Shown here: one piece after another, positions 7,279 through 63,154 of the stretch
How positions within the stretch are numbered: the first letter of the stretch is position 1
Layout of the letters: each line of letters starts with the position of its first letter
DNA from: Clytia hemisphaerica
Taxonomy: Eukaryota; Cnidaria; Hydrozoa; Leptothecata; Clytiidae
Assembly: GCA_902728285.1 (NCBI GenBank)
Contig: CACVBU010000064.1
Coordinates: 1,589,640-1,653,639 of the forward strand
Direction of reading: 5' to 3'
DNA length: 64,000 nt
Made by a program: the position numbers and the translations under genes
The notes under the pieces: model-generated
Told to the model about the DNA's origin: nothing
Database searches by the model: none
Seen by the model: only the letters and a program-made list of their open reading frames with translations

Positions 7279-7634
7279 TACCTTAAGGGAAGAAATTTTC
7301 GCGGGAACAGAATTTCGCGGTTTTCGCGGATTTTGCCTAAAACCGCGAAATTAAGTTCCCGCGAAATTTTACAAAGTCGTCAATCCGCGAAATTAAATTC
7401 CCGCGAAATTTAATTTATTTCATGCATTCCCCCAAATTCGTACTATTTCAAGCCTTAAAACAAGTTTTTTGCTTATTTAATAACGTTTTTGGTCAAAAAT
7501 ATACTGCAACCGCGAAATTAAATTCCCGCGAATTTTTCGAAAATTGATGAACCGCGAAATTAAATTCCCGCGAAAAAAAATAATTTGACCAACTGCGAAA
7601 TTAAATTCCCGCGAAAATTTCTTCCCTTAAGGTA
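7279..7634. mobile_element. MITE, TACCTTAA family, intergenic copy
   Basis: 356 bp, the same length as the copy at 54,255. Ends TACCTTAAGGGAAGAAATTT and its complement ATTTCTTCCCTTAAGGTA, TA at both edges. The interior repeats TTCGCGG / CCCGCGAAATTAAATT blocks in place of the TGGCGG blocks of the GPCR copy. Confidence 0.85.
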
Positions 7635-30694: not shown

Positions 30695-31898
30695 TCACTG
30701 TCTCCAGGGTCCCAAGTTAAGTTTTGGAATCCTAGCGCAACTGATTCGACGATTAGAGCCATTATTCGGAACTCTCAATGCGTTGGGTTGAATAGATACA
30801 ACATTCTTGAGATTGGCACATAATACACTTGCAAAAGTGACTTTCTCAATAGCTTGCAATTGGCTTGGCGTGAAAACACCTTTGTTCCGGTAAAAGAATC
30901 GATCACCGTCTCGGACATCTTCAAATTGTTTCTGGATCAAGCAATTGAACGTTGGTCCTAGTTCTGAATTGGGAAGGTGAACTTCAGAGATTCCAGCTGG
31001 AAACAGATCGATATCATTGGGGCTTTTGTAGATTCTCCGGAAAGCTTCAGCAGCTTTTGGCAGGAAGGTAGATTGAGCGTCAGCCCATGTTTTCAAGGTT
31101 GGCAAACCACAGAATTTTCTGTAAGCGCCATATGTTGGTAAAGCATGATCCCGGGCACGTTGAATATTCAATGCCAATAAATCATAATGGAAGCCTTCGC
31201 CAGGACGTACGAATAATCGTCGGGCAATTCCTTTAGCAAAGTTGTTGTCAACTTCGTTAGATTGGTTACCGGTGATACCAAACATTGTTGGTTCGATGCC
31301 ACGAAAGTTGACAGGCTCGCGGTTAAAAAATGCTTTTTGTAGTGGAAGAGGTTCAGTAACAGGATTAAAGCCAGCGTCATTTTGTTGGAAAGAGTTGGGT
31401 ACCAAGCTATGACCGTAGCGGAATGCAGCGGCGGCGAACGAATTACTAATGGAAGGATCAACATTTGGATTATATCTTTTGTATGGTGAGACTTGAACCA
31501 AAGCTGGCAAATACTCCTCATAAACAAGATTAGCCCAGATGCCGCCAACAATCTTACGAGCAGTTTGGTAAATAATTTCCGCGGACATTCTAGGATTTAT
31601 TCTACGGAGTTCACGTGCGATTCTATTATGTTCACGGATCCATAAAGTATGCATAGAGTGTAAAGCTATGTTTTCATCACCTCTGATATCACCAACTAAA
31701 GAACATCCGCCCAGAGTACGGCATTTCGTTGTACGCTCACCCAACAGATCTTTGAATACGGAGCATGCAGCGAATCCACCTATTTGAGCGATTGGCATTA
31801 ACCCATCTTCGGTGATTGCCATCAATGCACGATCTAAAGATAGTAAATTTGATTGTTTCATTTGGTGATATACACCGTACTTAGACATAACCATCCCC
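30695..31898 (-). CDS. Peroxidase last coding exon: haem-linking Arg/Glu and proximal His
   Basis: About 400 residues, stop TGA at 30697-30695. It holds GDIRGDEN (catalytic Arg, haem ester Glu), MHTLWIREHNRIA, FRYGHSLVP (proximal His) and a C-terminal ISCARIPKLNL stretch with a conserved Cys. The only usable acceptor is gttaag|GGGG at 31898. ATG codons just downstream are internal, not starts. Confidence 0.93.
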
Positions 31899-34800
31899 CT
31901 TAACAATCAAATAAAACAATTTCCGCTAGAAATCTAAATTTCCGAATAATTCAAGGGACGAACCAATCTGGCCGGCTATAGAGACGCCATTGTCTTCATA
32001 AAAAAAGGAAGGATGGACATTTCACTAGCTGTATCCTTTATGCTGTCGAATGCCTAATTGTTACTCATTAGCCCTCGACTAAATTGTAAGGATTTATATA
32101 AAAATGGGTCCACTTTCTTCGGGAAACACTGTATTGTTTCTTAAAAGGTACTTACCATTTTGATCTCTTAATAATTCAGCTAGCTCATCGCTATTTCCGT
32201 AGATCTGCGAAGCGTCGATGAAAGCACTTAGATGATTTGGCATTTGACGAATTCCCGGACGCTTATTATTTTCCGGACAGAGGGATTCGGACTGACTGAA
32301 TGATGTACATTCTGCAGACGTGTCGTTGAAGAGGATGGGTAAACATGGGTAAATAAATGATTCCTTGAGATCGTCGCATCTAGTAAAATAAAAAAAGGTT
32401 GCATGAAACTGGCTGAAAACTTAGACTGGAGTCCTTTATATTCCGTGTAATACAGTAATATTAGTGCTGTATGATAATACGTTTTTTACAATATTCTTTT
32501 TGCGGTTTTATTTCGTTGCATAAAAGATTGCAGGGAATTTGACATGGCTACACTCATTTTTTTCGGGCGCTTGCAACGCAATAAGATTGCAGAGACTTTG
32601 ACCTGGCTACACTCATCGTTTTTTAAAAAAAACTGTTCAGTGTAGCCTTAGCTTTAAGCTTGAAACTATAAAAATTAAGAACATCCGAAGGCTTCAAAAT
32701 TTTTACATGTTCTAATAAAAGAAACGTGTATGATGCTTCACCTGGAATCAACGAAGTCAAAACATAAGACTTTTTAATATATTTGCTTCTTTCTCAAGAA
32801 AGTAAAAGCTATCTTACCTTCCAAAAACTTTAAGTTGACATCGGTTCATTTCTACTTCAGTCAAATCATGATCTAAAAACTGTCCAAATGACATGAAAGA
32901 AACAGCCAAACCATTCCCATTACCATTGTTAGTAGTTTCGACTTGAAATACAGCTTGTGAGACTTGATTTGCAGTTGGAACGACTGGTGAAGTGTTTGGG
33001 AAACCACGTGGTGTTGTGATTCCATCCACATAGTCAGCATCTAGATCATAATACAGTACAGTCTCTTTAACTCGAACTTCTTAACTCGAATGTCACCTTA
33101 GTTCGAACAAGTTTCGTGGTCCCTTCAGTTAACAATGTCTTATAAACCTTACTCCTTAACTCGAAATTTCCTTAACTCGAACAAATTTGTTTTCTCCGTA
33201 CATGTCCGAGTTAAGGATACAGTAAAAGATGTACTATTTTATTACATTTGATAGAATCACCATGTAAAAGACCCGATCGTAATGGAAAAAAAACTGTCTA
33301 TTAATTCCCGTTGATAAATTTTCCCGATTGAAGATTTTGTATCACTCTTGTAAACCTTTGATACAAATTGGTCCCAGGGAAAAATAATCAAGGAACCCAT
33401 GATGTCTTTCTTCGGACTTGTTTTAGTTTTAACACAAAGTCATTATAAAAAACCCTGGTCTGGTAATGTATTACTGTCAAATTGTCTTTTGTTGTGAATA
33501 AAAGGAAAGTTGCGATTTGCATACGTTTGAATCACGTTATCATTTTCGACTATTTGGATTGGTTTATTTTATGATCACATGATCAAAAACTATGCAAAAC
33601 AAATCAATTTAAGGTACGCTCTAACTCTAACGGTTAATAATCGAAGGAAAGAAAAGCCTACCAGACTGGGCCTTTTTATAAAAACTTTGTTTTAACACAA
33701 AGCAACTCTTGAATATCTTGTCAACTGTAGACTTAACAGTTTGTATACTTACCAACAATTCTAGCGAGAGCAGTTTCACTTGCTCCCCATTGCGGATTTC
33801 TTTCATTATTACACGTTCCATCAATGGTTCGGAATTCATTGCTAGCTTTGCTGCAATATATTCTTGTTCTTGGCTCTTGGCATTTAGCGAATGAGTTTTC
33901 TGAAAGCAAGAATGATGTATGTAATGTCATTAGCTTTACTAAAAATTAACACTTTGCCACCGTAGTCATCTGTAATCATAATCAAGTTACACCCCTTTCT
34001 CACAAGCCCGGTAAGGGATAAAAATAATGGACCATAAACTCGATGGGATTGATTTTCTTATGTTTTTAATGTGGATTTGAATTCCCTTGCTTAAAAATAG
34101 CACAATAAATATTTTCTACGGGGATAAAGATTATTGTATAATTTTCGACTGGGGACGATATTTTAGCCATTTTTCAGAGCGGCAAGGGGTCCTAGTGGGT
34201 CTGTGTGAAGGGGTGTACAAGTTAGAGATCTCCGACAAGAGAAATAGTTAGTGTCATTTGTATTAAGCTTCTTAATTAGTAATCAATAACCACTTGGTCA
34301 CAGCTAAAGATTTTTACTTACTTTGAATTATATTACTGGCTGGTAATAAATTGGAGCTTGGTAAACGATTAACATCAGAAAATCCTTGATATTTGAATTT
34401 CCTCAATTGAGCCAGACTGCTTCTTGACCATTTATTTGGAGTATAAATCAAAACATTGTTGAATGATGTTGGGATTCTATTTTCCAGTGAACGAACTCTG
34501 TTACCGTTGATTTTGATTTGGTAGATATATTTGCCGTTACTCTGTTTCCGTTGTGAGATTTCAACTCTGGTGAATCTATTTGTTGGTATTGTTGAGGAAG
34601 TATATATGTCTTCTTTATTATTGATGTTAGAGACGATATACAGTTGATGAGTGTTTGGGCGGAACCATACAGCTGGGATTCTGGATCCAATAGGATTACG
34701 GTTAGCTCCAGTAGTGAAATGGATGATACTTCTCCAGTTGTTGAATCGTTGTCTGTTTGGTCTGATGTTGAAACTGACTTCCCATTCTTTGGGCCATTTT

Positions 34801-46500: not shown

Positions 46501-49500
46501 AAATCCAGTGGGGATGGTTTTGGAGTGCAATTTTCAGACAATTATTTTCGAGTGGGGATGAAATGAAAGTCCATTTCCCAGTGGGGCTGAAATTCCAGGG
46601 TATTCAGGCTCGGATACAGAGGGAGGCTATAACCAATGGAGGAGAGTGCACTTTATTATCGTATTACCTTATATGGAAACTAATTACTCTCCATGAATAA
46701 GATAGCCTACCTCCTGTATCCGACCCTGGTATTATCCCACCGAGGACCAAATTTTTGCCAAATTTTCCAGTGTGGCTTGAGTCCCAGTAGGTCTGTGACA
46801 CAGGGGTGTTGTCTTACCCAGATGCTATTGGTCTTGCAATGCATTTCAAGTAAGTGGGTTCATCCATGAAAAATATCTGACACGTGATTGCCGAGAGAAG
46901 ATGAGCAGAGAGTTGGAAGTAGGTTGCCATTCGATTCGCATTTTTTACAATCGGAGTTTCACGAAGCTTCACAAAGATTATCATTGTAAATATAACAAGA
47001 CGACTTGAAGTCGAAAATTTCGCCTAAAGTTTAAACTGCATGGGAAAAAACAAGAAGTAGAGATGAAAGCTAATCTGAAGTCTATTTTACATCGAGCCTG
47101 GATGAAACAATTTTATATGAACAACGAGGCTCAAATTCGCTAAAAAGAAAAGATCAATTTACGAACAATGGTTGTTTAATTCTTAAGAACTAAAAACTGA
47201 AGGGCATATCACCATCTATAAAGAGTTATTAATTTGATTCTTATAGAAAAAAAAACCTTATCAGGGAAAACTTTGTCGGGGAGAAGTGACGAAATCTTGG
47301 CCAAGTGACGAATATTTTTCCCCGACGAAAATTTACCCCGGCCTTAATGCGTTTACCAACTACCAGCAAGTGACGAATATTTTTCCCCGACGAAGCTTTC
47401 CCCGATAATGTAAATATGTTCATATTGCGCCATCCCTTGATTACTTTGTAAGAAATAATTACCGAAGGCTATATCACCTTCTATCGAGAGTTATTGATTT
47501 GATTCTTATAAAGTATGTGCTTATAAGAAAAATAAATATGCTCATATTGCCTGTCATCTATTGTTTACTTTGTAAGAACTAATTACCGAAGGGTGTATCA
47601 CCGTCTATCAAGAGTTACTGATTTGATTCTTATAAAGTATATGCTTATAAGAAAAATAAATATGTCCATATTGCCTGCCATCTATTGTTTACTTTGTAAG
47701 AACTAATTATCGAAGGGTGTATCACCGTCTATCAAGAGTTACTGATTTGATTCTTATAAAGTATGTGCTTATAAGAAAAATAAATATGCTCATATTGTGC
47801 GCCATTTCTTGTTTACTTTGTAAGAACTAATTATCGAAGGGTGTATCACCGTCTATCAAGAGTTATTGATTTGATTCTTATAAAGTGTATGCTTATAAGA
47901 AAAATAAATATGCTCATATTGTGTGCCATCCCTTGTTTACTTTGTAAGAACTAATTACCAAAGGCTATATTACCATCTATCAAGAGTTATTGATTTGATT
48001 CTTATAAAGTATATGCTTATAAGAAAAATAAATATGATCATATTGTGTGCCATCCCTTGTTTACTTTGTAAAACTAATTACCGAAAGGTATATCACAGTC
48101 TATCAAGAGTTACTGATTTGATTCTTATAAAATATATGCTTATAAGAAAAATAAATATGCTCATATTGCCTGCCATCTATTGTTTACTTTGTAAGAACTA
48201 ATTACCGAAAGGTATATCACAGTCTATCAAGAGTTATTGATTTGATTCTTATAAAGTGTATGCTTATAAGAAAAATAAATATAATCATATTGTGTGCCAT
48301 CCCTTGTTTACTTTGTAAGAACTAATTACCGAAAGGTATATCACAGTCTATCAAGAGTTATTGATTTGATTCTTATAAAGTGTATGCTTATAAGAAAAAT
48401 AAATATGATCATATTGTGTGCCATCCCTTGTTTACTTTGTAAGAACTAATTACCGAAAGGTATATCACAGTCTATCAAGAGTTATTGATTTGATTCTATA
48501 TAAGTGTATGCTTATAAGAAAAATAAATATGATCATATTGTGCATGTGTGCCATCCTTGTTTACTTTGTAAGAACTAATTACCGAAGGGTATATCACCGT
48601 TTATCAAGAGTTATTGATTTGATTCTTATAAAGTATATGCTTATAAGAAAATAAAGAAAAAATCCAAACTGTGAAGCTAAAGACACAAAGATATATGACG
48701 TAATCCAAAGAAAACCCGCGAAAATCGTCCGTGGTTATACGAACATGTAAAATGTAAATTAAGCTTAGTAAGTTCGTCCACCGTATCAAGTACTTTCGTT
48801 TTCTAAATTTTCGTCCGAGGACACCGCCGCTGAATGCCTATCGTAATACTTTCGCTAAGGCGAAATTAATAAGTAGAATAAGTATGTAAACGAGAGAGGA
48901 GATTAAAATGACATCCAATTGATCCATTTTGATGTATTGATCTTGATACGGATCGAAACAGGTTGTTCTTTCAAAATTTGTCTCGTAAAAACCAAAACAT
49001 TCACCGCACTTATCATTTCCAACGACTTCTTTGTAAAATCCTGAAGATTTAAAGTTTACAAACTTAAATTTTGATAGTGACACTTCTACATATTTTGTCG
49101 TGTGAAGCCATGGGGGTACTGAGGCAAAAGTAGGTGCCTAGTATATAGGCAGGTGGTAAGGATCGGTTCTTTGACCTGCAAAAGTCTCTCTAAGGGTTAC
49201 AAAGAAAACAAAAATGTCCAAGCTGGCCTTGCCAGTGGCTCACTTAGTAAGTTAATAAACCTTCGGCCGCGAGGATTATATTTCGCAAGCTTCATGAATT
49301 TCTTTCGAAAATTCGCAAAATTTAACGTTCGCAAAACGCAAAAATTTTCAAAAAATTTTTATACCGTGCTGACACTTTTGACAAAACCATCCAAAACTGT
49401 TCACCCATTTTGGTTCTTTGTAAAAACCATGAATCAATTCTTCGCCTTTTCCACATTGTGGTTTGGTTAAATTGCAGAACGGTTCTGATTTATTTAATTG

Positions 49501-52500
49501 TCTTTGCGCGTTGTAGAGGTAAGGATCGCGGCGATTCTCTTCCCTTTCCTGTAAATGAAAAACAACAATGCAAAAATCTAAGCTTTCTTAAGAATGTGTT
49601 CCATTTTCTTATAACACACTTGACCTTATACACGGGATAGTATAAATTATAGCTACTCTTTTTACGCAACGATGTCCTGCCAACAAGTGAAAGATCGAAA
49701 GTTGTTTTGAGATGTGACCTCACATTGTATTGCTTTTGTAAAACAAACAAGAAGCCGTATCGGCGTGAAGGCCAAGCTGACGTGGCAATAACTGAATGTT
49801 CATTCGTACCGAGTACCGGTAATGTTGGCGGGACTAATTTCTGCGTTTTGGGTTTTGCGAAAAGTACCAGATTTATACTCTCGAAGTGCAAAAATGAAAA
49901 GCCAAAAATGTTCCAAACTTTGCCCAACAAAATATCAAAACAAAAGAAAGCAGATGCGCTAAAAAGTCCGCAATGGTAAATGAAAGCGAGTTAGTGATGA
50001 ATGTGACCAGAAGAGTATTTTAATAAAACAAAAAAAGCTATGCTATTGCATGCCTACATTATGTACAAAATAAATTCATTTTATATTTTTGATACTACCG
50101 TCAAAGTGCAAAAATTTTGCAAAGAAAAAAAAGAGTGTAAAAATTACTGGCGATTTTCCGTAATCATTCTGCTATTTTCCCCGGGTATACCGGCAGTCAT
50201 ATTGCTAGAAATCGCCCCGAAAAAAGCGAGACGCTTCTGTATGACCATCCAACTTTCTAAATTTCCTTCTTTGGCTATCCAAAACGTTTTTATCTTTTTC
50301 CGTTTTCAAGTGGAAAGTGGAACTATAGACCAGGAACCGGAATCTTATGCACTTTGACACGGTAATATGAAAGAAAACATTGGTTAATAAATTCAAACTT
50401 CCCATGTCACTGACCTTAAAAATGATCAAGAAAGGATCATCATTTTCACACGCTAGAATCATGAAAAATGTTTCAATCTTATTCAATTTAACACATAAGC
50501 TGCATTTAAGTATCCATTAATAAATTCCTGAATCAGTTTACTTAGAAAAATTCTGTGTCGAGCTTGAAAAATCCAGTCACCCAACGTTAAATGTAACAGA
50601 TCTAGAAATGACCATTTTCATGCTTAGCATCATTTGAAATATTTCAATCTTATTCAAATTTACATATATGCTGCATTTTAGTATCCGTTAACAAATTCCA
50701 GAATCAGTTTACATGGAAAAATTACGTGTCAAGTTTGAAAAATCCAGCAACCGGCCATTAAATGCGACAGATCCAGAAACGCAGAAAGGACCATTATCAT
50801 GCATAGCACCATGAAAAATATTCCGATCTTTTTCAAATTTACACATGAGCTGCATTGTAGTATCCATTAACAAATTTCTGAATCAGTTTACATGGAAAAA
50901 TTCCGTGTCAAGTCTGTAATATAAATTTCAATCCATCTTGAAAATAACCATGTTTTCACTTCATTTCGCAACCAAAAATAAAATAAATTTGACTCTGTTA
51001 CTAAACTCCATCCCATATGAGACAGCCTAAATATCACGCGGGTAGACGAGACAAAAAACAGGCGGTCGGGTGGTTGGGCGTTGTTTAGCCTGGATTCGTT
51101 AACTTATTGCGCTCACAGGCCCCGACAAAGCCAAAAACCAGTTTTCGACCAGTTGCTTTTTAAAGGCCCACTTGCGCTGCGCGGCTGGGCCAAAAAATAG
51201 CAAAGTTAATTATAAGATAGAAAACGTTCCATTTTTTTATGAATTGAAAGTAAAGTATTATTTGTGATTGATGTTGCATAGTGCTCAATGAAACCAGAGC
51301 TATATGTTTGTAACCTAAATGAAAACTTAAGAAAAGAAAAGTACTAAGAAAAGTATTTTCACCAGTGTGAGGAGTCAACGACCTCCCAACGCCTATCCAA
51401 TCTCGAGACATAGCATTTTACCTATTTTGATGACGTCATCAACTGAAAACGCCTAAAAATTCAGCCAAATTTCAAAGTCACTTTCAAGCCTCATACCCCT
51501 CCCTTCATCGGGATAATTACCTTTTCATAAATTACTTCACGGACATCGCTGTCCTCGTATTCAAACAATTCCCATGGTGATTATGTCCCTTGAGAGATTA
51601 AATGATTTAGTTCATAAGGCATATTACTATAGAACGTTTTCTTTATAATCAAAACATTCGATTGTAAATTTGCTCGAAATCAATTTTGCTATTTCTTTTG
51701 TTTTGCAAAAGCAATAGAATGTGAGGTGACATCTCGAAACAACTTTCGATCTTTCACTTGTTTGCAGGATATCGTTGCGTAAAAAAAGTAGCTTTAATTC
51801 ATTTAATTTCATCTGACTCAGCGTAAAGACACTGCCTAAAATAAGCTCCTTTTATTCCCGTAGAAAACCTTGAAAAATAGATATAATAACTTCTATACTA
51901 ACCTTTTGATAAGTGATACCTCTCCACATGTAAAGCAATTTTTTTAGCTCTTCGCTATTGCTAGCAATCTGATTGGCAAAATGTTGTCTTATGTTTACCT
52001 ATGGTTAAATTAAAGGGAATTTAATTTGGCTGATAGCTGGATAAAGTAAATTTGGCGGGAATTTATTTTGGTGGATGGAGGAAAAATTTAATTTTGGCGG
52101 GAACTTAATTTGGCGGATTTTGGCGAAATCCGTCAAATCCGCCAAATTTTCTTTCCGCCAAAATTTCTTCATTTTAAGGTAACACAATATGGTTGAGAAT
52201 ATTAGTTATTGTAGTCCTAGATTTTTTTCAAGATTCGCTGCTACACGCCTTTTTTATAAGAATCTTAACAGGCTGGGAATCGGCCTAGCAACAAACTAAG
52301 AACAATCTGAGCCTCAGATTTAAGAAATTATCAAAAAAGCACTAATTTCAACGGATTTTAAACCAATTTTCAATTTTTAACTACATAAACTAAGCATATT
52401 ACGAAAATCATTAAAACATTCATTTAAGCTTGAAAATTTAATTTTTTAAAGACTTAATCAAATAGAACGATCCTCACTGAAAGATATTGTGTAATTTCTT

Positions 52501-55500
52501 CCATCCCTACTGAATTTTCTGACTTGAACACAAAAGAATTCAAATCCTCTGCTAAAAAGAATATGGGAATATCAATCCTCGTCGATTTTCAGTTCGTTAT
52601 GTCTATCCCCACTAGCAGGCAAAATTCCACCAAGTTAGTGAGAAGGGGATGTATAGCTCGAACACGCACGGGAAAACAAACTTGTCCAAGTTATGGAGTA
52701 AGGTTCATAAGGCATTGTTAACTGAAGGGACGAGAAAACTTGTTCGAGTTAAGGAGACATTCGAGTTAAAAAGACTCCGTTGCATTCTCTTACATCAATA
52801 CTAAGCCATTGCTCAGTAGTCATTCCAGAGAATTGAGGATATGCGTATTTCAATCCATCCAAAATTTGTGGATAACCTTCGACTAATAGATATTTGAATT
52901 CAGTGATTAACCACATAATTTCTTCTAACTGTGTTCCTCCTAAAACAAACAGAATATTCCTCTTGAAATGCAGGGTATAGTATTACCTATTGAAATCCAA
53001 AAGCTCCCTTAACAATCAAAAGCGGTAAAATCGCAAATATTGGAATAAGTGCTGCAGTGCAGCTGTGTTTTATCATCTTGGCGCATTTGATTGTTAAAGG
53101 AACTTTTGGATTGTTATAGGTAAGTACGGTAGTTTTCCGATGGCTTCAAAGCATAGGCTGTATCAAAAACCCCAGTCTGGAAGCCTATTGTTTTAACTTT
53201 TTGTTAGATTTTGTCCTTTTTTGATAACAAAAGATAAAAACAGATTTGCTCAGATTTTGATCAAAATACTTAAGACTCCTCTTGGGATCGATTCGGAATT
53301 TAAGGCTTGGGGACAAGAGAAAAAAATAAGACACGCTGATTTTGTCCCAAGGACAAAAGTGAGAGACACGCAAATGTTATCAAAAGTGTTGTCGATTTCA
53401 CTTTTTTTGGTAGAAAGAAGAATGGGGTGGAGATACGAGAAAGCGTTTCAATTTGGTGGGATGGAGCATGTTGCATTGCACCAACGCGAAAAAAACTTCT
53501 CATGTCCCAAAAGTTTTTGTTAGTACAGGTTGACGTTAAGAATTTAAACAACTAAAGGCTTGGGGACACGAGAAATTTTTTCCGCGTTGGTGCAATGCAA
53601 CATGCTCCATCCCACCAACCTGAAACGCTTTCTCGTGTCTCATTTTTCTTTTAATACCATTTGTGCTTCTCTTACTTTCATCCCTGGGACAAAGTCAGCG
53701 TGTCTTTTGGGTATTTTCCTCACTTTTTATCCCATAAAACAAAAAAAGAAACCATGAGACACGCCCTAGTATTATTTCCCTAATGAAGAAATCCTAGTGA
53801 TTGTAAAATATTTTATAAGAATGGAAACCTCACCTGGTACATTTTGAAACTGTCTATAATGTTTTCTTCGTTTTAAGTCGCTTTCTTGAGATTGATAGGT
53901 CGCTGTTTCGTTATTGTAAGGTCTCACGTATGGAGCCAAAAAGAAATCGTTTTTTGCGTCTGAAATGAAAATTGTTTAAAAAAATTGCTTCCCCGTTAAG
54001 CAATCAATCAAAATACGAAATGGCGCAAACCCTGTACCAATCAGGTTGCTATTTTCGATTGTTAAAACGAATAATCAAAACAAAAGTTTTACCTGGGTGC
54101 CAGAAATAGTGAAACGCGTCTTGATACCCGAAGGACTTGTAAGTAGTGTATAAACCATAAATATAAATCGCTCTCAGGTTCTCGTGCGCTTTGACAAAAG
54201 CAATGGAGTTGTTCACTTGTGTCTCATTATTGCGGTCGATGTAAATTTCCTTAATACCTTAAAGGAAGAAATTTTGGTGGAAATTTAATTTAGCGGATGG
54301 TCGAATAAGTTTGTTCAGAGGGGATTTAATTTGGCGGATGGCTGGAAAAAATAAATTTGAAGGGATTTTAATTTGGTGGTTGCAGGATATTTTTGGCCAA
54401 AATCGTTATCAAATAAGTAAAACAACCTGTTTAAAGGCCTGAAAAAGCAGCAATTTGGGGAATGCGTTATATACAATTAATTTGGCGGGAGTTTAATTTG
54501 GCGGATGGAGGAAAAAATAAATTTTGGTGGAAACTTAATTTGGCGGATTCTGGCCAAATCCGCCAAATCCGCCAAATTTTCTTTCCGCCAAAATTTCTTC
54601 CTTTAAAGATACATTGATATTTATCTGCATATTCCATGTGTGAGAGATGACAGAATGCTGAATCTTTTCTTTCGGTGCAATTCTTTCTGATCACTGAATC
54701 GTCTTCCTTAAATTCTTTTATGTAGAACACTGCACTGTAAGTAACACCAAGAGATGACAGAAATGTCTCTGTTGATTTTCCTTTTGAATAACTACATTCA
54801 AAACTGAAAATGTTTGTTGGTTTCTCTACTAAAATGCTAGGGTACATTTCCTGCCATGTGACAGACAGTAAAGGTATATCTTCATTGAGGAGAAGATAAC
54901 TCAAGAATCGCGTTAATTCATGAGACATATAGGTTAGGATGATAGTTGTTTCTCGATTGTGCGTTGTTGTGGCATTCCCATGGGAACACATCCCGCTCGT
55001 GTTTGTGACAGGGTGTTCGATGAAAGGTAGAGCGAAATCGTTGACAGCTTTGATTGAGTTCTTTATATCAATGATACAATAGTACTTGTACCTGTACATG
55101 TAAATATGAAAATAAACCCACTTTTTGACAAAAAGAAACATAGAAATCATTTTAGTTCTTTTTTTTTCTTTGTTATACCTACAAAAAGGAAGGGTTTTTG
55201 ATTGGGAGCTAAAAGAAGTGATGACGAAAAGTTTTTTTCCAATTTCGTCACCTCCTATAAAGTGAAACCCCTACAACTTTTTCTTACAAAAGTTGTTGCA
55301 GAAAGTAGCACACACGTTTTTTATAAGAACAAATTATGTAAGAACACATGGCTTCAAGTACAAGAATATCAAAAATAAGTTAAGAACATCTTAAGACTTC
55401 ACGCACTCTAAAACGCCCAATTTCTTAGGAAAATGGACAGAAATACTCACAAAAATGTTAAAATAAGAACATGTTAAGAACCTCTTTAAGGCTCAAAACT

Positions 55501-56282
55501 AAAAAAGCTAAGAACATCCGAAGACTTCAAAGATTTTAGATGTTCTTATAAAAAATTGTATCGTGTATTGATCGGAAGTTACATTGTGTCTCTTTATAAT
55601 CCAGTTTTCTATTTACATCACGAGAGAGAAACAAACACTGCATAAACGAAGTTTTTAGATCAAATGATGAAAAGTTTTTAACCCTAAAGAATGTTCTTAA
55701 AATATTCTTATTTAACTATTTAATGAGTATTTTTGTGAGCTTTCTTGACAAAAAAAATGGAACAGCGGGGAAAAGTTTTTTGGCTTAATTTTCGAGTGGA
55801 GCGGTCGTCCCACCGGGTCTGTGAAACAGTTTTGTGAAAAGGAGGTGTTTATCAAATATTTCGAGCTGAATAAAAAATTTAATATTAGCAGATTCATATA
55901 AAACGTCACGAGTAAAGCTCCTATTGGCTGAGACATGCAAAGACATTTTGAAAAAATATGCTTATATGTGCAATGTTCAGCCAATCAGAGCTTTACTCGA
56001 CGTTTTTTCGTGACTTTTTTACATGAATCTGCTAATAGGAAATACGTGTATTTACCTGTTTCTTTTATTCTCGTGATAATCCAATTTTAGAGGGTTCTCA
56101 TCAGGGACAAGATGTGATAAGATATCTGCAGTCCATTGAGCATCTAAACAATGATGTTCGAATCCTGGTTGACAATTGGTCATTGTAAACAATCCAAGAA
56201 TGTCCCAAACGATAGGTTCCTTTGCCATAGTTGCTGGGAATATGTTAAGCAAAAGCAAAAATTTCATAATATTCGCTGCCAT
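43335..56282 (-). CDS. Class C G-protein-coupled receptor (Venus-flytrap plus 7-helix), one or more exons unidentified
   Basis: Exons in transcript order: 56282-56056, 55091-54613, 54257-54093, 53959-53834, 52939-52794, 51968-51903, unresolved part, 49085-48850, 47023-46818, 46065-45873, 44242-44090, 43592-43335. The first six join in phase and give 403 residues: signal peptide plus a periplasmic-binding-like ligand domain with many N-glycosylation sites. The last five join in phase and give a Cys-containing linker (CGECFGFYETNF) and the 7tm_3 domain. Family hallmarks are RETPIVKNANR, LKCIARPIASG, LAKTQKLHVIFGLKTR, RARKLPSHFKETNHV and FKPQRNT. These resemble the metabotropic glutamate/calcium-sensing branch more than GABA-B, but the linker is shorter than a full nine-Cys domain. 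The receptor should sit in the plasma membrane and couple an extracellular small ligand to G proteins; the ligand is unknown. The intron between 55091-54613 and 54257-54093 is a MITE. Confidence 0.88.
44090..44242 (-). CDS. GPCR exon: extracellular loop 2, helix 5
   Basis: Acceptor tcttttcgaag|GTG, donor TTCAAG|gttagt. It encodes a Cys-containing loop (EKTCQNNTS), helix 5 (QLFFVLLLVLANGIQAF) and RARKLPSHFK, the class C start of intracellular loop 3. Confidence 0.88.
44368..44720. mobile_element. MITE, GCTTGGGGACACGAG family, in a GPCR intron
   Basis: Ends AAGGCTTGGGGGCACGAGAA and TTCTGTCTCCAAGCCTT with internal CATCCCACCAACCTGAAACG. Confidence 0.75.
45555..45839. mobile_element. MITE, CCCCTTCTCACAGACCC type, left end truncated
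   Basis: Starts at ACACAGACCCGGTGGGA and ends GGTCTGTGAGAAGTGGGTGT. In the GPCR intron after the helix 3-4 exon. Confidence 0.75.
45873..46065 (-). CDS. GPCR exon: helix 3, loop 2, helix 4
   Basis: Acceptor tatttccag|C, donor GCTAAG|gtgagc. It encodes SVSLAKTQKLHVIFGLKTR, matching the class C KTNRi.lIF motif at the inner end of helix 3, then GILGWLIIALILIIDTMLLL (helix 4). Phases 2 in and 0 out agree with both neighbours. Confidence 0.88.
46409..46810. mobile_element. MITE of the same type abutting a GPCR splice donor
   Basis: Ends ACACCCCTGTCTCACAGGC and CTGTGACACAGGGGTGTT, 6-bp duplication GTCTTA (46403-46408 and 46811-46816). The right duplication is the minus-strand donor TAAGAC (+2 to +7 of gtaagac). 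It carries a nested palindrome at about 46,612-46,730 (CGGATACAG..CTGTATCCG). Confidence 0.85.
46818..47023 (-). CDS. GPCR exon: end of helix 1 to helix 3 start
   Basis: The translation contains LVIFTMIIFVKLRETPIVKN, NRMATYFQLSAHLLSAI and YLKCIARPIASG. TPIVKxxNR and the Cys that pairs with extracellular loop 2 are class C hallmarks. Donor TCTGG|gtaagac, phase 2. A MITE begins seven bases beyond the donor. The 5' boundary (tttag at 47024) is less certain than the core. Confidence 0.82.
47257..47411. mobile_element. CGGGGAAAA MITE inserted in the first satellite unit
   Basis: Ends ACCTTATCAGGGAAAACTTT and CTTTCCCCGATAATGTA, interior GACGAATATTTTTCCCCGAC. It interrupts a 124-bp satellite unit, so it is younger than that unit. 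Confidence 0.75.
47412..48652. repeat. Satellite: about 10 copies of a 124-bp unit in a GPCR intron
   Basis: Units start near TTTACTTTGTAAGAACTAAT and contain TATCACCGTCTATCAAGAG and GCTTATAAGAAAAATAAATA. The spacing of the TTATAAGAAA landmark is 124 bases (47521, 47645, 47769, 47893). A diverged half unit at about 47,160-47,256 precedes it. Long ORFs here are by-products of units near 123 bases. Confidence 0.93.
48850..49085 (-). CDS. GPCR exon: Cys linker and first membrane helix
   Basis: It encodes a beta-rich tail, the Cys linker NDKCGECFGFYETNFERTTC, then DVILISSLVYILILLINFAL (helix 1). Donor GCGAAA|gtatta is weak but in phase 0 with the next exon. The acceptor (tatgtag or gtagaag) needs phase 1 from an exon not found. 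Confidence 0.72.
50415..50452 (-). CDS. Possible small GPCR exon (NDDP motif)
   Basis: Between tgattctag and TTTAAG|gtcagt, 38 bases encode CENDDPFLIIFK, resembling the family's FDxNGDP-type strand at the end of the ligand domain. It needs a phase-1 donor upstream that I cannot identify, and it sits in a tandemly repeated segment, so it may be chance. Confidence 0.35.
50420..50925. repeat. Three diverged tandem copies of a 175-180-bp segment in a GPCR intron
   Basis: The landmark GAATCAGTTTAC recurs at about 50,530, 50,702 and 50,881, and ACCATTTTCATGC-like words precede each. The first copy contains the possible small exon's splice acceptor. Confidence 0.75.
51903..51968 (-). CDS. GPCR exon 6: Venus-flytrap, 22 codons
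   Basis: Acceptor ccaatcag|ATT, donor CAAAAG|gttagt, phase 0 on both sides. It encodes IASNSEELKKLLYMWRGITY, like the family segment just before the FxGxxGxVxFD strand. That next strand is not convincingly found. Confidence 0.7.
52012..52186. mobile_element. MITE, TACCTTAA family, shortened copy in a GPCR intron
   Basis: The right end CCGCCAAATTTTCTTTCCGC then AAAATTTCTTC..TTTTAAGGTA is nearly identical to the 54,255 element. The left end is decayed. It lies between GPCR exons 5 and 6. Confidence 0.75.
52462..52652. mobile_element. MITE, CCCCTTCTCACAGACCC type, partial
   Basis: Only one end (CACCAAGTTAGTGAGAAGGG) and internal CATCCCTACTGAATTTTCTG blocks remain. In the GPCR intron between exons 5 and 6. 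Confidence 0.6.
52669..52785. mobile_element. Tc1/mariner-like MITE fragment in a GPCR intron
   Basis: Words TGTTCGAGTTAAGGAGACAT and GAGTTAAAAAGACTCCGTTG match the complement of the 33,049 copy. Ends about 10 bases short of the exon 5 donor. Confidence 0.55.
52794..52939 (-). CDS. GPCR exon 5: Venus-flytrap
   Basis: Acceptor gttttag|GA, donor ATTGAT|gtaaga, phase 0 out. It encodes GTQLEEIMWLITEFKYLLVE and AYPQFSGMTTEQWLSID, fitting the second lobe. Confidence 0.78.
53300..53765. mobile_element. Two GCTTGGGGACACGAG MITEs head to head in a GPCR intron
   Basis: One runs 53,300-53,515 and one 53,556-53,765. They share GGTGGGATGGAGCATGTTGC in opposite orientations, about 30 bases apart, and could fold into a long hairpin in the intron between GPCR exons 4 and 5. 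Confidence 0.72.
53834..53959 (-). CDS. GPCR exon 4: Venus-flytrap
   Basis: Acceptor catttcag|AC, donor CCAG|gtgagg. It encodes DAKNDFFLAPYVRPYNNETA and a Lys/Arg-rich stretch. Phase 1 on both sides. No stop in this frame, and both neighbours join in phase. Confidence 0.78.
54093..54257 (-). CDS. GPCR exon 3: Venus-flytrap, downstream half of the MITE-split exon
   Basis: Acceptor ttcttcctttaag|GT inside the MITE end, donor CCCAG|gtaaaa. Translation IKEIYIDRNNETQVNNSIAF then ENLRAIYIYGLY continues the flytrap fold directly from exon 2: the join makes one Cys codon (T+GT). Phase 1 out. Confidence 0.82.
54255..54610 (-). mobile_element. MITE acting as an intron (TACCTTAA family)
   Basis: A 356-bp element including one TA at each end. 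Ends read TACCTTAAAGGAAGAAATTT inward from the left and, from the right, TATCTTTAAAGGAAGAAATT. The interior is TGGCGGAT-rich and imperfectly palindromic. It lies inside a flytrap coding exon of the GPCR; removing it with one TA leaves an uninterrupted reading frame. Minus-strand splice sites AAT|GTATCT (54612) and TTCTTCCTTTAAG| (54258) are made by host G plus TA duplication and by the element's own end. Confidence 0.85.
54613..55091 (-). CDS. GPCR exon 2: Venus-flytrap lobe
   Basis: Acceptor acatgtacag|G. It encodes 159 residues, including TTIILTYMSHELTRFLSYL and EDIPLLSVTWQ, which match the conserved family segment where a test for alternative S..s..ia..l leads into iPqiS. It ends CAAT|gtatct at the edge of a MITE, phase 1. 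If unspliced, the frame reads about 47 codons into the MITE before a stop at 54,467. Confidence 0.82.
55310..55560. mobile_element. MITE, AAGAACA family, in the first GPCR intron
   Basis: Ends ACACACGTTTTTTATAAGAA and GTTCTTATAAAAAATTGT. Confidence 0.72.
55883..56036. mobile_element. Palindromic MITE in the first GPCR intron
   Basis: ATTAGCAGATTCATATAAAA and GTCACGAGTAAAGCTCCTAT are inverted at the right end (GAGCTTTACTCGACG, ATGAATCTGCTAAT). It lies 20 bases into the intron after GPCR exon 1. Confidence 0.75.
56056..56282 (-). CDS. GPCR exon 1: signal peptide and start of ligand domain
   Basis: Start chosen at ATG 56282 (aaaATGGC context), giving MAANIMKFLLLLNIFPATMA, a typical signal peptide. 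Upstream in-frame codons allow a longer start but would bury the signal. The mature part includes WDILGLFTMTNC and a Cys pair. Donor AACAG|gtaaat, phase 2. Confidence 0.8.
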
Positions 56283-61700: not shown

Positions 61701-62529
61701 ACATACTCAGCACCCATTTTTGCCCAAATACCCCCCCCCCCGGACTTGCAAACCGTTTAATAATTTTTTGTCAATTTAAGTTTCTAAAGCTTGAGCGAAT
61801 TTTTCTTTGTAAATGACTGATTGAAATGATAATTATTAAGGTTATTTTAGCTGAAAATAAGATCAAATGCAGGTCAAATGAGGAATGAATTTGATAATTT
61901 TGGCGAGAAGCCAAGCAAAATAAATGTGCAGAAATAAACTTCAGAAGAGTCAGTCCAAATCCCAATTACTCCAAAACTTTTGAAGCTTACACGTTTTTTT
62001 ATTAAAACATTCAAAAATTTTTAAGCCTTTCGGATGTTCTTAACTTGTTTTTAATATTTTGGTCATCGAAGTCTTATGTTTTTATATAGTTTGTTCTTAT
62101 AAAAAAACGTGTATTTCACCCAATGATAAGAAACGAAAGAATGAAATACCTTCTCCCACGAACCAATGTACAAAAGCACGTTTGGCATACATTAAATCAA
62201 ACTTATGATCAACGTCGAGCCCAGGCCTCAACAATAGCTGTTGTATTAGATAACATACATACAGCGCGTTGAGTTCTGACCAAATCACCCCCTGGGACAA
62301 CAGTTGGTGGCTGGTAATTGATTCCAACTTTGAATCCAGTTGGACACCAATCAACAAATTGAATGCTACGTTTGGTCTTCATGAAACTGATAGCAGAATT
62401 CACGTCTTTGGGGACAACATCACCACGATAGAGCAAACAACAAGCCATGTATTTTCCATGTCGAGGGTCACATTTGACCATTTGATTGGCAGGTTCGAAG
62501 CATTGTTTAGTTATCATTTCTACAGAAAC
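58600..62529 (-). CDS. Alpha-tubulin, last two exons (5' part outside window), frame broken
   Basis: Exons 62529-62150 and 58718-58600, separated by a 3.4-kb repeat-filled intron. The first encodes [51 protein letters not shown] and [10 protein letters not shown], then [20 protein letters not shown]. The second encodes [20 protein letters not shown] and an acidic tail ending DDNEY. The final Tyr is the usual detyrosination site. Alpha-tubulin polymerises with beta-tubulin into microtubules. Some normally fixed residues differ ([18 protein letters not shown]), suggesting a divergent paralogue. After AWAR one extra base (GCTCGACGTTGATCAT) shifts the frame and gives an immediate TGA. Both splice sites and the tail remain intact. 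The earlier exons should lie beyond position 64,000. Confidence 0.9.
58793..59039. mobile_element. MITE, TATAAAGCCCGAAGG family
   Basis: Ends CCATAGATTTATAAAGCCCA and GGGCTTTATAAATCTATGG. Interior matches the copy at 16,138. Lies 75 bases past the acceptor of the tubulin last exon, inside its intron. Confidence 0.8.
59729..60025. mobile_element. MITE, GTTTAAAGC family, in a tubulin intron
   Basis: GTTTAAAGCGCGAAGGCC and CCCTTCGGGGCTTTAAAC inverted ends; TTTCCCATCCA words inside both halves. Confidence 0.55.
60242..60510. mobile_element. MITE, ACACCCCTGTCTCACAG type
   Basis: Ends ACACCCCTGTCTCACAGCCC and GTCTGTGACACAGGGGT, interior AATGGGGATAAAAATTCTAT blocks. The probable flanking repeat TTTGA is imperfect. 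In the tubulin gene's 3' intron. Confidence 0.75.
61430..61745. mobile_element. MITE, GAGAGACTTTTTT family
   Basis: GGTATGTGCGGACGGGACC and GTCCGCACATACTCAGCACC are inverted; five CCCTTAGAGAGACTTT words lie between. G and C runs at the two ends. Confidence 0.65.
61990..62114. mobile_element. MITE, AAGAACA family, deletion derivative beside a tubulin splice donor
   Basis: Ends ACACGTTTTTTTATTAAAAC and GTTCTTATAAAAAAACGTGT with about half of the core missing. It lies 36 bases inside the intron from the donor of the tubulin exon at 62,150. Confidence 0.75.
62150..62529 (-). pseudogene. Alpha-tubulin penultimate exon with +1 frameshift
   Basis: Acceptor catcacag|GTT (62529), donor GAGAAG|gtattt (62150, phase 1). 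Reading is perfect until AWAR at about 62,217. One surplus base between Arg and the expected Leu-Asp-His then shifts the frame, and deleting it restores the tubulin sequence to the donor. Not in a homopolymer, so less typical of sequencing error; pseudogene status is still unproven. Confidence 0.75.
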
Positions 62530-63154
62530 CTGTGATGATAAATAAAATTTCAGTCAGGTAGCCTTGAAAAATTCAGAATTCTACACAAACCCATCTTATA
62601 TTGAAGGCTCTAAAAGTAAATTTTTTTGAAAGTAGAATTTTTTTTTCCGGAATGGTTTTCTTAATTGGTGTATGGACAGACTATTTTTCTTTAAAAAATG
62701 TGCATGAAACATTTGCCAAAAATCACTTTTCTTGAGATTTTGAGAGAAGTAGTTTTTACAAAAATTTTCCGAAAATATGTTTTTGATTCGGGAAAAGATA
62801 CCCTATCTAGGGCAAAAATATTTTCAGAATGTATTTTCTTCGCTGAAATGAGATTTTAAAGTCGATATTCTTTTCTTCGCAGAAGTCTTCATTTTCTTTT
62901 TCCTCAAATTCTTTCATTAAGATTTTAGAATTTTTAGATTCGAGAATGCCAACCATAACATGGTTAACGTAACAGAAAATGTATGAAATGCTTAAGTTTG
63001 AGGGCTACATCAGGTAGGTTGTAGTATTTTTGTACGTGCAAAATATAAAAAAAATCACTATGGTCACAGCAATTAAATAGAACTGGGTATTCAAGTAGGC
63101 TCTGAAAGTTTTAACTCGACTTAAGATGGACAATCGAGTTGTATGATGATTAGC

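Follow-up and report, generated by a model that had tools for sequence, protein, structure and literature searches.

A TA-flanked MITE within a coding exon of Clytia hemisphaerica that probably acts as a transposon-born intron

The window analysed here is a stretch of 64,000 nucleotides from contig CACVBU010000064.1 of the hydrozoan Clytia hemisphaerica, and it carries on its minus strand a gene whose modelled part spans positions 49366..56267. The first exon of this gene (56267-56056) is inferred. The exon of interest is split by a short inverted-repeat element into an upstream part (54613..55091), whose start was inferred from the open frame and an acceptor, and a downstream part (54093..54257), which is continuous with the upstream part in homologous proteins. 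Later exons were placed at 53959-53834, 52939-52794, 51998-51903 and 49548-49366. All exons except the first match P0004 (UniRef A0A7M5VEU9), an uncharacterized protein of 399 residues from C. hemisphaerica. It was the one protein found, from 872 candidates, in a search with the 376-residue host protein from which the element had been removed, and the two are identical at all 306 shared residues. When joined, the segments 55093-54613 and 54257-54093 and the four later exons reproduce 399 of the 399 residues of P0004. The first of these segments begins two bases before the inferred exon (55093 vs 55091), because the genomic AG at this place and the AG at the end of the inferred exon 1 yield an identical first codon. 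The other four introns of the gene are of the GT-AG type, with the donors CAG/GTAAAA, CAG/GTGAGG, GAT/GTAAGA and AAG/GTTAGT (a slash marks a splice or insertion boundary). P0004 has no start methionine and ends directly before a GT (CAGCACG/GTATAA), two features that fit what might be a transcript-derived fragment.

The 376-residue part of the host protein contains six N-glycosylation motifs; the N-terminus is hydrophobic, and hydrophobic segments follow further downstream. In the initial annotation the gene was named as a flytrap GPCR. However, the comparison of the gene parts with Pfam gave nothing above the cut-off, with neither an ANF/flytrap nor a 7tm_3 domain matched, and the comparison with PDB sequences gave nothing better than E 0.2, so that this name was not upheld and a class C GPCR is now a guess. 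Structure prediction for three homologues (see below) reached a mean pLDDT of 34.6, which is too poor for a fold search. Among viral contigs, the protein profile yielded 121 pattern stretches, none of which was confirmed by tblastn. Tandem repeated readings such as FLQSKQGMAHNMIIFIFLISIHFIRIKSITLDRL were observed on the minus strand at 47725-48445, downstream of the modelled host exons.

The element within the coding exon, hereafter copy A, occupies 353 bp (54257..54609, minus strand), as delimited by its inverted-repeat ends, by direct inspection and by two relatives in the window. On the coding strand, it is preceded by one copy of the target-site dinucleotide TA (54610..54611) and followed by another (54255..54256), and the junctions read CAAT/GTATCTTTAAAGG on the left and TTTCTTCCTTTAAG/GTATTAAGG on the right. 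The 5' terminal repeat, TCTTTAAAGGAAGAAATTTTGGCGG, is located at 54585..54609 and the 3' terminal repeat at 54257..54280. The ends are inverted repeats of each other, with 87.5% matching over 40 nt and, with the flanks included, 77% over 57 nt. The RNA from 54240-54632 is predicted to fold better than shuffled sequence (folding z -5.14; none of 100 shuffles folded equally well). The longest stop-to-stop frame confined to the element is 59 amino acids. Copy A is therefore short, bounded by terminal inverted repeats and devoid of coding capacity, as is characteristic of MITEs, i.e., non-autonomous DNA transposons with terminal inverted repeats. The other characteristics of this class were found as well, namely the target-site duplication, with TA on each side of both copy A and a second copy (copy B), and dispersed copies, which number three in 64 kb, one of them partial. 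Insertion of the element into the exon is near certain. The TA-flanked inverted-repeat element interrupting the coding sequence in the initial annotation is thereby confirmed, with its length corrected from 356 bp to 353 bp plus TA.

Removal of the 355 nt at 54258..54612 (minus strand) as a GT...AG intron joins the flanks as ...YQCIKEIYIDRN... in one open frame, and exons 1-4 without the element form a single open frame of 376 codons. Apart from the host G and one TA, this intron contains only the element without its final G. The host G at 54612 together with the 5' TA makes the GTA of the donor, the 3' terminal repeat bears the pyrimidine tract and the AAG acceptor and gives the first G of the following exon, and the 3' TA stays in the exon. 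Three further predictions made earlier from the letters of this locus hold: the frame is restored by splicing exactly as by deletion of the element plus one TA; the donor combines the host G with the duplicated TA, and the acceptor is the element's own terminal repeat, in agreement with the junction reading and with the complete match to P0004; and retention of the element would truncate the protein at 54467, where read-through translation meets its first in-frame stop (54467..54469, minus strand). Thus, an intron that runs from splice site to splice site of the insertion, as required for introners, is found here as judged by the public protein.

We further scored the candidate splice sites with a human-type matrix, applied here to a cnidarian host. 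The acceptor at the element end scores 4.62, which is above 98.6% of the 3324 AG sites on the strand (top 1.4%), and five other acceptors of the host gene score 0.82-4.98. The donor AAT/GTATCT has no G at positions -1 and +5 and scores -3.87, better than 66% of the 3060 GT sites on the strand and below all seven donors of the host gene, which were inferred by eye and score 1.58 to 9.12. With a weak donor and a strong acceptor, the strength of the splice sites cuts both ways. Two acceptor-like sites inside the element, 54438 (7.15) and 54341 (5.07), outscore the end acceptor and might lead to alternative products, should the donor be used; both are absent from the 25 best pairs that are open and in phase. 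Of 836 combinations of donor and acceptor examined across the exon, 95 preserve both its open frame and its phase. By score, the exact pair 54612/54258 comes second among these (0.74), after 54795/54257 (1.16), which drops 61 host codons. It ranks first among the ten pairs that keep at least 205 residues, being the sole one with no residues added or lost.

A U12-type intron was also considered, since GTATCTTT resembles a donor of the minor class. Introns of this type have a donor near GTATCCTTT and a branch site TTCCTTAAC that precedes the acceptor by about 10-20 nt. The present donor is one of 63 GT sites on the strand that match the U12 donor at seven out of nine positions (eight out of nine are matched at seven sites), and the two branch-like matches (6 or more) are placed wrongly, only 2-3 nt from the AG. 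The U12 assignment was rejected on these grounds.

The state of the exon before the insertion was approached through three homologous proteins (P0001-P0003; 51-59% identity), two of which came from the first protein search (45 candidates) and the third from a profile search, and whose ENA contigs measure 729, 776 and 637 bases, respectively. All three are uninterrupted across the site and read KQC-LKEIF, KQC-IKEIF and QQC-LKEIY, compared with YQC-IKEIY in the host, which corresponds to the exon after deletion of the element and one TA. The initial annotation had proposed to compare intron positions in orthologues, and the reading is continuous in each of these three homologues. As all three homologues read through, the exon was probably continuous before the insertion, at the level of protein readings; the introner-like feature of insertion into a previously continuous exon is thus seen at the same level. 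P0001 and P0002 extend beyond the end of the window's exon in the manner of plain open-frame calls and are therefore taken as unspliced exon readings. In the alignment, the homologues vary in length along a segment located 5 to 12 residues upstream of the insertion site, so that the insertion sits beside a loosely conserved part of the protein. MITEs are often found in introns, and the partial family copy of the window (copy C) sits in another intron of this gene, so one could imagine an old intron into which the element jumped later. However, the present intron holds no sequence beyond the element, the TA and the host G, and all three homologues are uninterrupted at the site; we regard this scenario as extremely improbable.

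With regard to expression, the available text of PMC12221839 describes Clytia RNA-seq data that were mapped with TopHat2 and genes that were predicted with Cufflinks and Cuffmerge, and that of PMC8728113 describes the entry of Clytia into Ensembl Genomes via MARIMBA. A0A7M5VEU9 probably descends from those gene models. Given this account of how Clytia genes were built from mapped RNA-seq, the intron junction of the public model probably rests on reads, as judged from the gene-building method. The spliced product is the same as the empty site, so it could not be told apart from the RNA of an allele that lacks the element, and a junction in RNA-seq therefore cannot decide alone without phasing. 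This identity is at the heart of another explanation, polymorphic insertion, according to which the assembled haplotype holds a damaging MITE allele and the RNA behind the public protein came from an empty allele. The junction can be placed at five equivalent positions, only one of which is GT-AG, and reads from the empty allele, once aligned to the filled assembly, would show up as the same GT-AG intron. The weak donor and the prediction of Clytia genes from genome-mapped RNA-seq are likewise compatible with this explanation. On the other hand, the ends of copy A are no longer alike, whereas those of copy B show no difference over 27 bases, a contrast that speaks against a very recent insertion, and the insertion-bearing haplotype is open across the 376 codons of exons 1-4. 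In a simulation of neutral decay of these exons, which assumed 12 indels per 100 substitutions and 19 essential splice and start bases, the probability of remaining intact was 0.35, 0.11, 0.0175 and 0.003 at 0.5, 1, 2 and 3% divergence, respectively. The age arguments from end divergence and the open frame are modest, because the source element may have been divergent already at the time of insertion. On balance, a polymorphic insertion appears unlikely.

A different reading of the same data holds that the element is retained and the gene is dying, i.e., that the filled allele is a null allele whose frame ends at 54467 and that the junction in the public model reflects the preference of annotation for an open frame. 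Such a scenario would draw on the weak donor and on the in-frame stop encountered upon retention, but it is difficult to reconcile with the description of Clytia genes as transcript-built, with the missing start methionine of P0004, which is unusual in a purely predicted gene, and with the 376 codons that carry no further damage. It is very improbable in our assessment. The more plausible origin is a transposon-born intron, that is, an insertion-bearing allele that is spliced at 54612-54258, which we consider likely, and the reads behind the public-model junction would then come from the spliced filled allele and not from the empty one. The functional intron of the initial annotation is accordingly retained in part: the complete match to P0004 and the read-through of all three homologues speak for it, whereas the efficiency of a donor that scores below seven host donors, and an empty allele that gives the same RNA, leave it qualified.

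Blastn within the window identified two relatives of copy A. Copy B is a full-length family member of 352 bp (7281..7632) with TA on either side, and it shows 77% identity to copy A in an alignment of 357 positions. Copy C is partial (about 52014..52179), shows 89% identity to copy A over 141 nt and lies within the intron 52793-51999, close to the acceptor site for the exon that begins at 51998. The boundary of copy C toward this exon is uncertain. Five family ends were located by pattern and scored as acceptors (2.32, 2.66, 4.62, 4.78 and 4.78). Copy B contributes its two ends to the top three and copy A its used end, and the degenerate ones are the unused end of copy A and the intact end of copy C. 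As the top scores are spread over ends of copies A and B, the acceptor-like end belongs to the family and not to one insertion. At each of the top three ends, the outgoing strand presents a pyrimidine tract followed by AAG/G, so that an exonic insertion at GTA in either orientation could become an exact intron that restores the mRNA. Within the first four exons of the host gene, 10 of the 74 NTA sites are GTA, hence about one in seven random exonic TA insertions would be equally neat by the choice of target alone. An exact intron corresponds to one of the three copies in the window, copy C being only part of an intron and copy B not being placed in a gene.

A three-way alignment of the copies gave six changes special to copy A and 18 special to copy C, but the left part of copy C is apparently misaligned, and a relative dating of copy A from this alignment was dropped. 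The start of copy C lies some 15 bases before the exon at 51998 (VNIRQHF...), so that the element may provide a portion of the pyrimidine tract for the acceptor in this region (51999-52018). A TA-CC is found right at the edge of the same exon (...CCATAG/GTA), and copy C, whose outer boundary is uncertain, could be the source of the acceptor itself. Searches for the family in other collections had little to add: Rfam had no matches in the window at gathering scores, two element patterns gave no match in viral contigs, and 61 bacterial and archaeal contig records that match the terminal-repeat pattern were judged to be due to chance, as blastn with the element gave only short matches, the longest covering 33 positions.

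The proposed origin of the intron can be outlined as follows. A non-autonomous TA-inserting DNA transposon of the MITE type, present at least three times in the window, would have inserted at a GTA of a continuous coding exon. The donor GTATCT would then have arisen from the host G and the 5' copy of the TA, and the acceptor from the pyrimidine-rich terminal repeat that the element itself brought along (TTTCTTCCTTTAAG). As the last base of the element is G and the second TA comes next, splicing would recreate the pre-insertion mRNA exactly, and the insertion would act as a new spliceosomal intron with the protein unchanged.

Transposons that behave as introns are not new. In work attributed to Rushforth and Anderson from 1996, Tc1 of C. 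elegans was reportedly spliced from exons at varied and often imprecise sites in new mutants. Like Tc1, copy A is a TA-inserting element that lies in an exon and would be removed from the pre-mRNA, but the removal of Tc1 is said to be often imprecise, whereas that of copy A is exact and agrees with the public gene product. Insertions of maize Ds and Drosophila 412 are also said to be spliced from exons; they share with copy A an exonic transposon acting as an intron and differ in the classes of elements and in the hosts.

The closest parallel is with introners. According to the available text of Gozashti et al. 2022 (PMC9860276), introners of Symbiodinium microadriaticum bring their own 3' splice site and obtain the 5' one from a 4-bp target-site duplication, and most introner families leave the mRNA length unchanged. 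Copy A shares with the Symbiodinium introners the signatures of DNA transposons and the unchanged mRNA length (as in most families there), but relies on a 2-bp TA and one host G in place of the 4-bp duplication. The same text counts 27,563 introner introns in 175 of 3,325 genomes, and places introners among animals and land plants in two groups only, both of them animals. Introner families comprise many similar introns, with copy numbers in a genome that range from 5 to more than 2,000, whereas a single intron is at hand here, and since membership requires several such introns in a genome, copy A is not filed as an introner family, although by analogy it works like an introner. In the part of PMC7789003 on Amoebophrya, introner elements are described with inverted repeats that are able to form a hairpin joining the exon edges and with direct repeats at the junction; copy A likewise has hairpin-capable inverted repeats and direct repeats at its junction, but those elements were defined among non-canonical introns and the intron of copy A is GT-AG. 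That the whole MITE family represents an orientation-independent introner family in a cnidarian is a tentative and rather doubtful extension. If it is true, Clytia should hold many such introns, concentrated at GTA. Among the five open-licence papers found on intron gain, DNA transposons and cnidarians, no title reports such a case.

The origin of new introns is a long-standing question, and since introners are reported as rare in animals in the text available from PMC9860276, an animal case matters. The kind of event is already known, and the present case is notable for its animal host and because Clytia is a laboratory animal, which makes experimental tests possible. The case unites an element, a target duplication, read-through homologues, sister copies and a fitting public protein. 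It also illustrates a trap, as exact recreation of the empty site means that RNA-seq mapped to the reference cannot separate the birth of an intron from a polymorphic insertion.

Two other features of the window were observed outside the host gene. At 62100-62553, there is an alpha-tubulin-like reading (identified by eye) with a frame break after ...VEAWARR, which looks like a broken copy. On the minus strand, 30698-31906 carries an animal haem peroxidase reading (Pfam PF03098, E 4.3e-107), with lactoperoxidase as the best PDB sequences and with further exons, by eye, up to about 33080.
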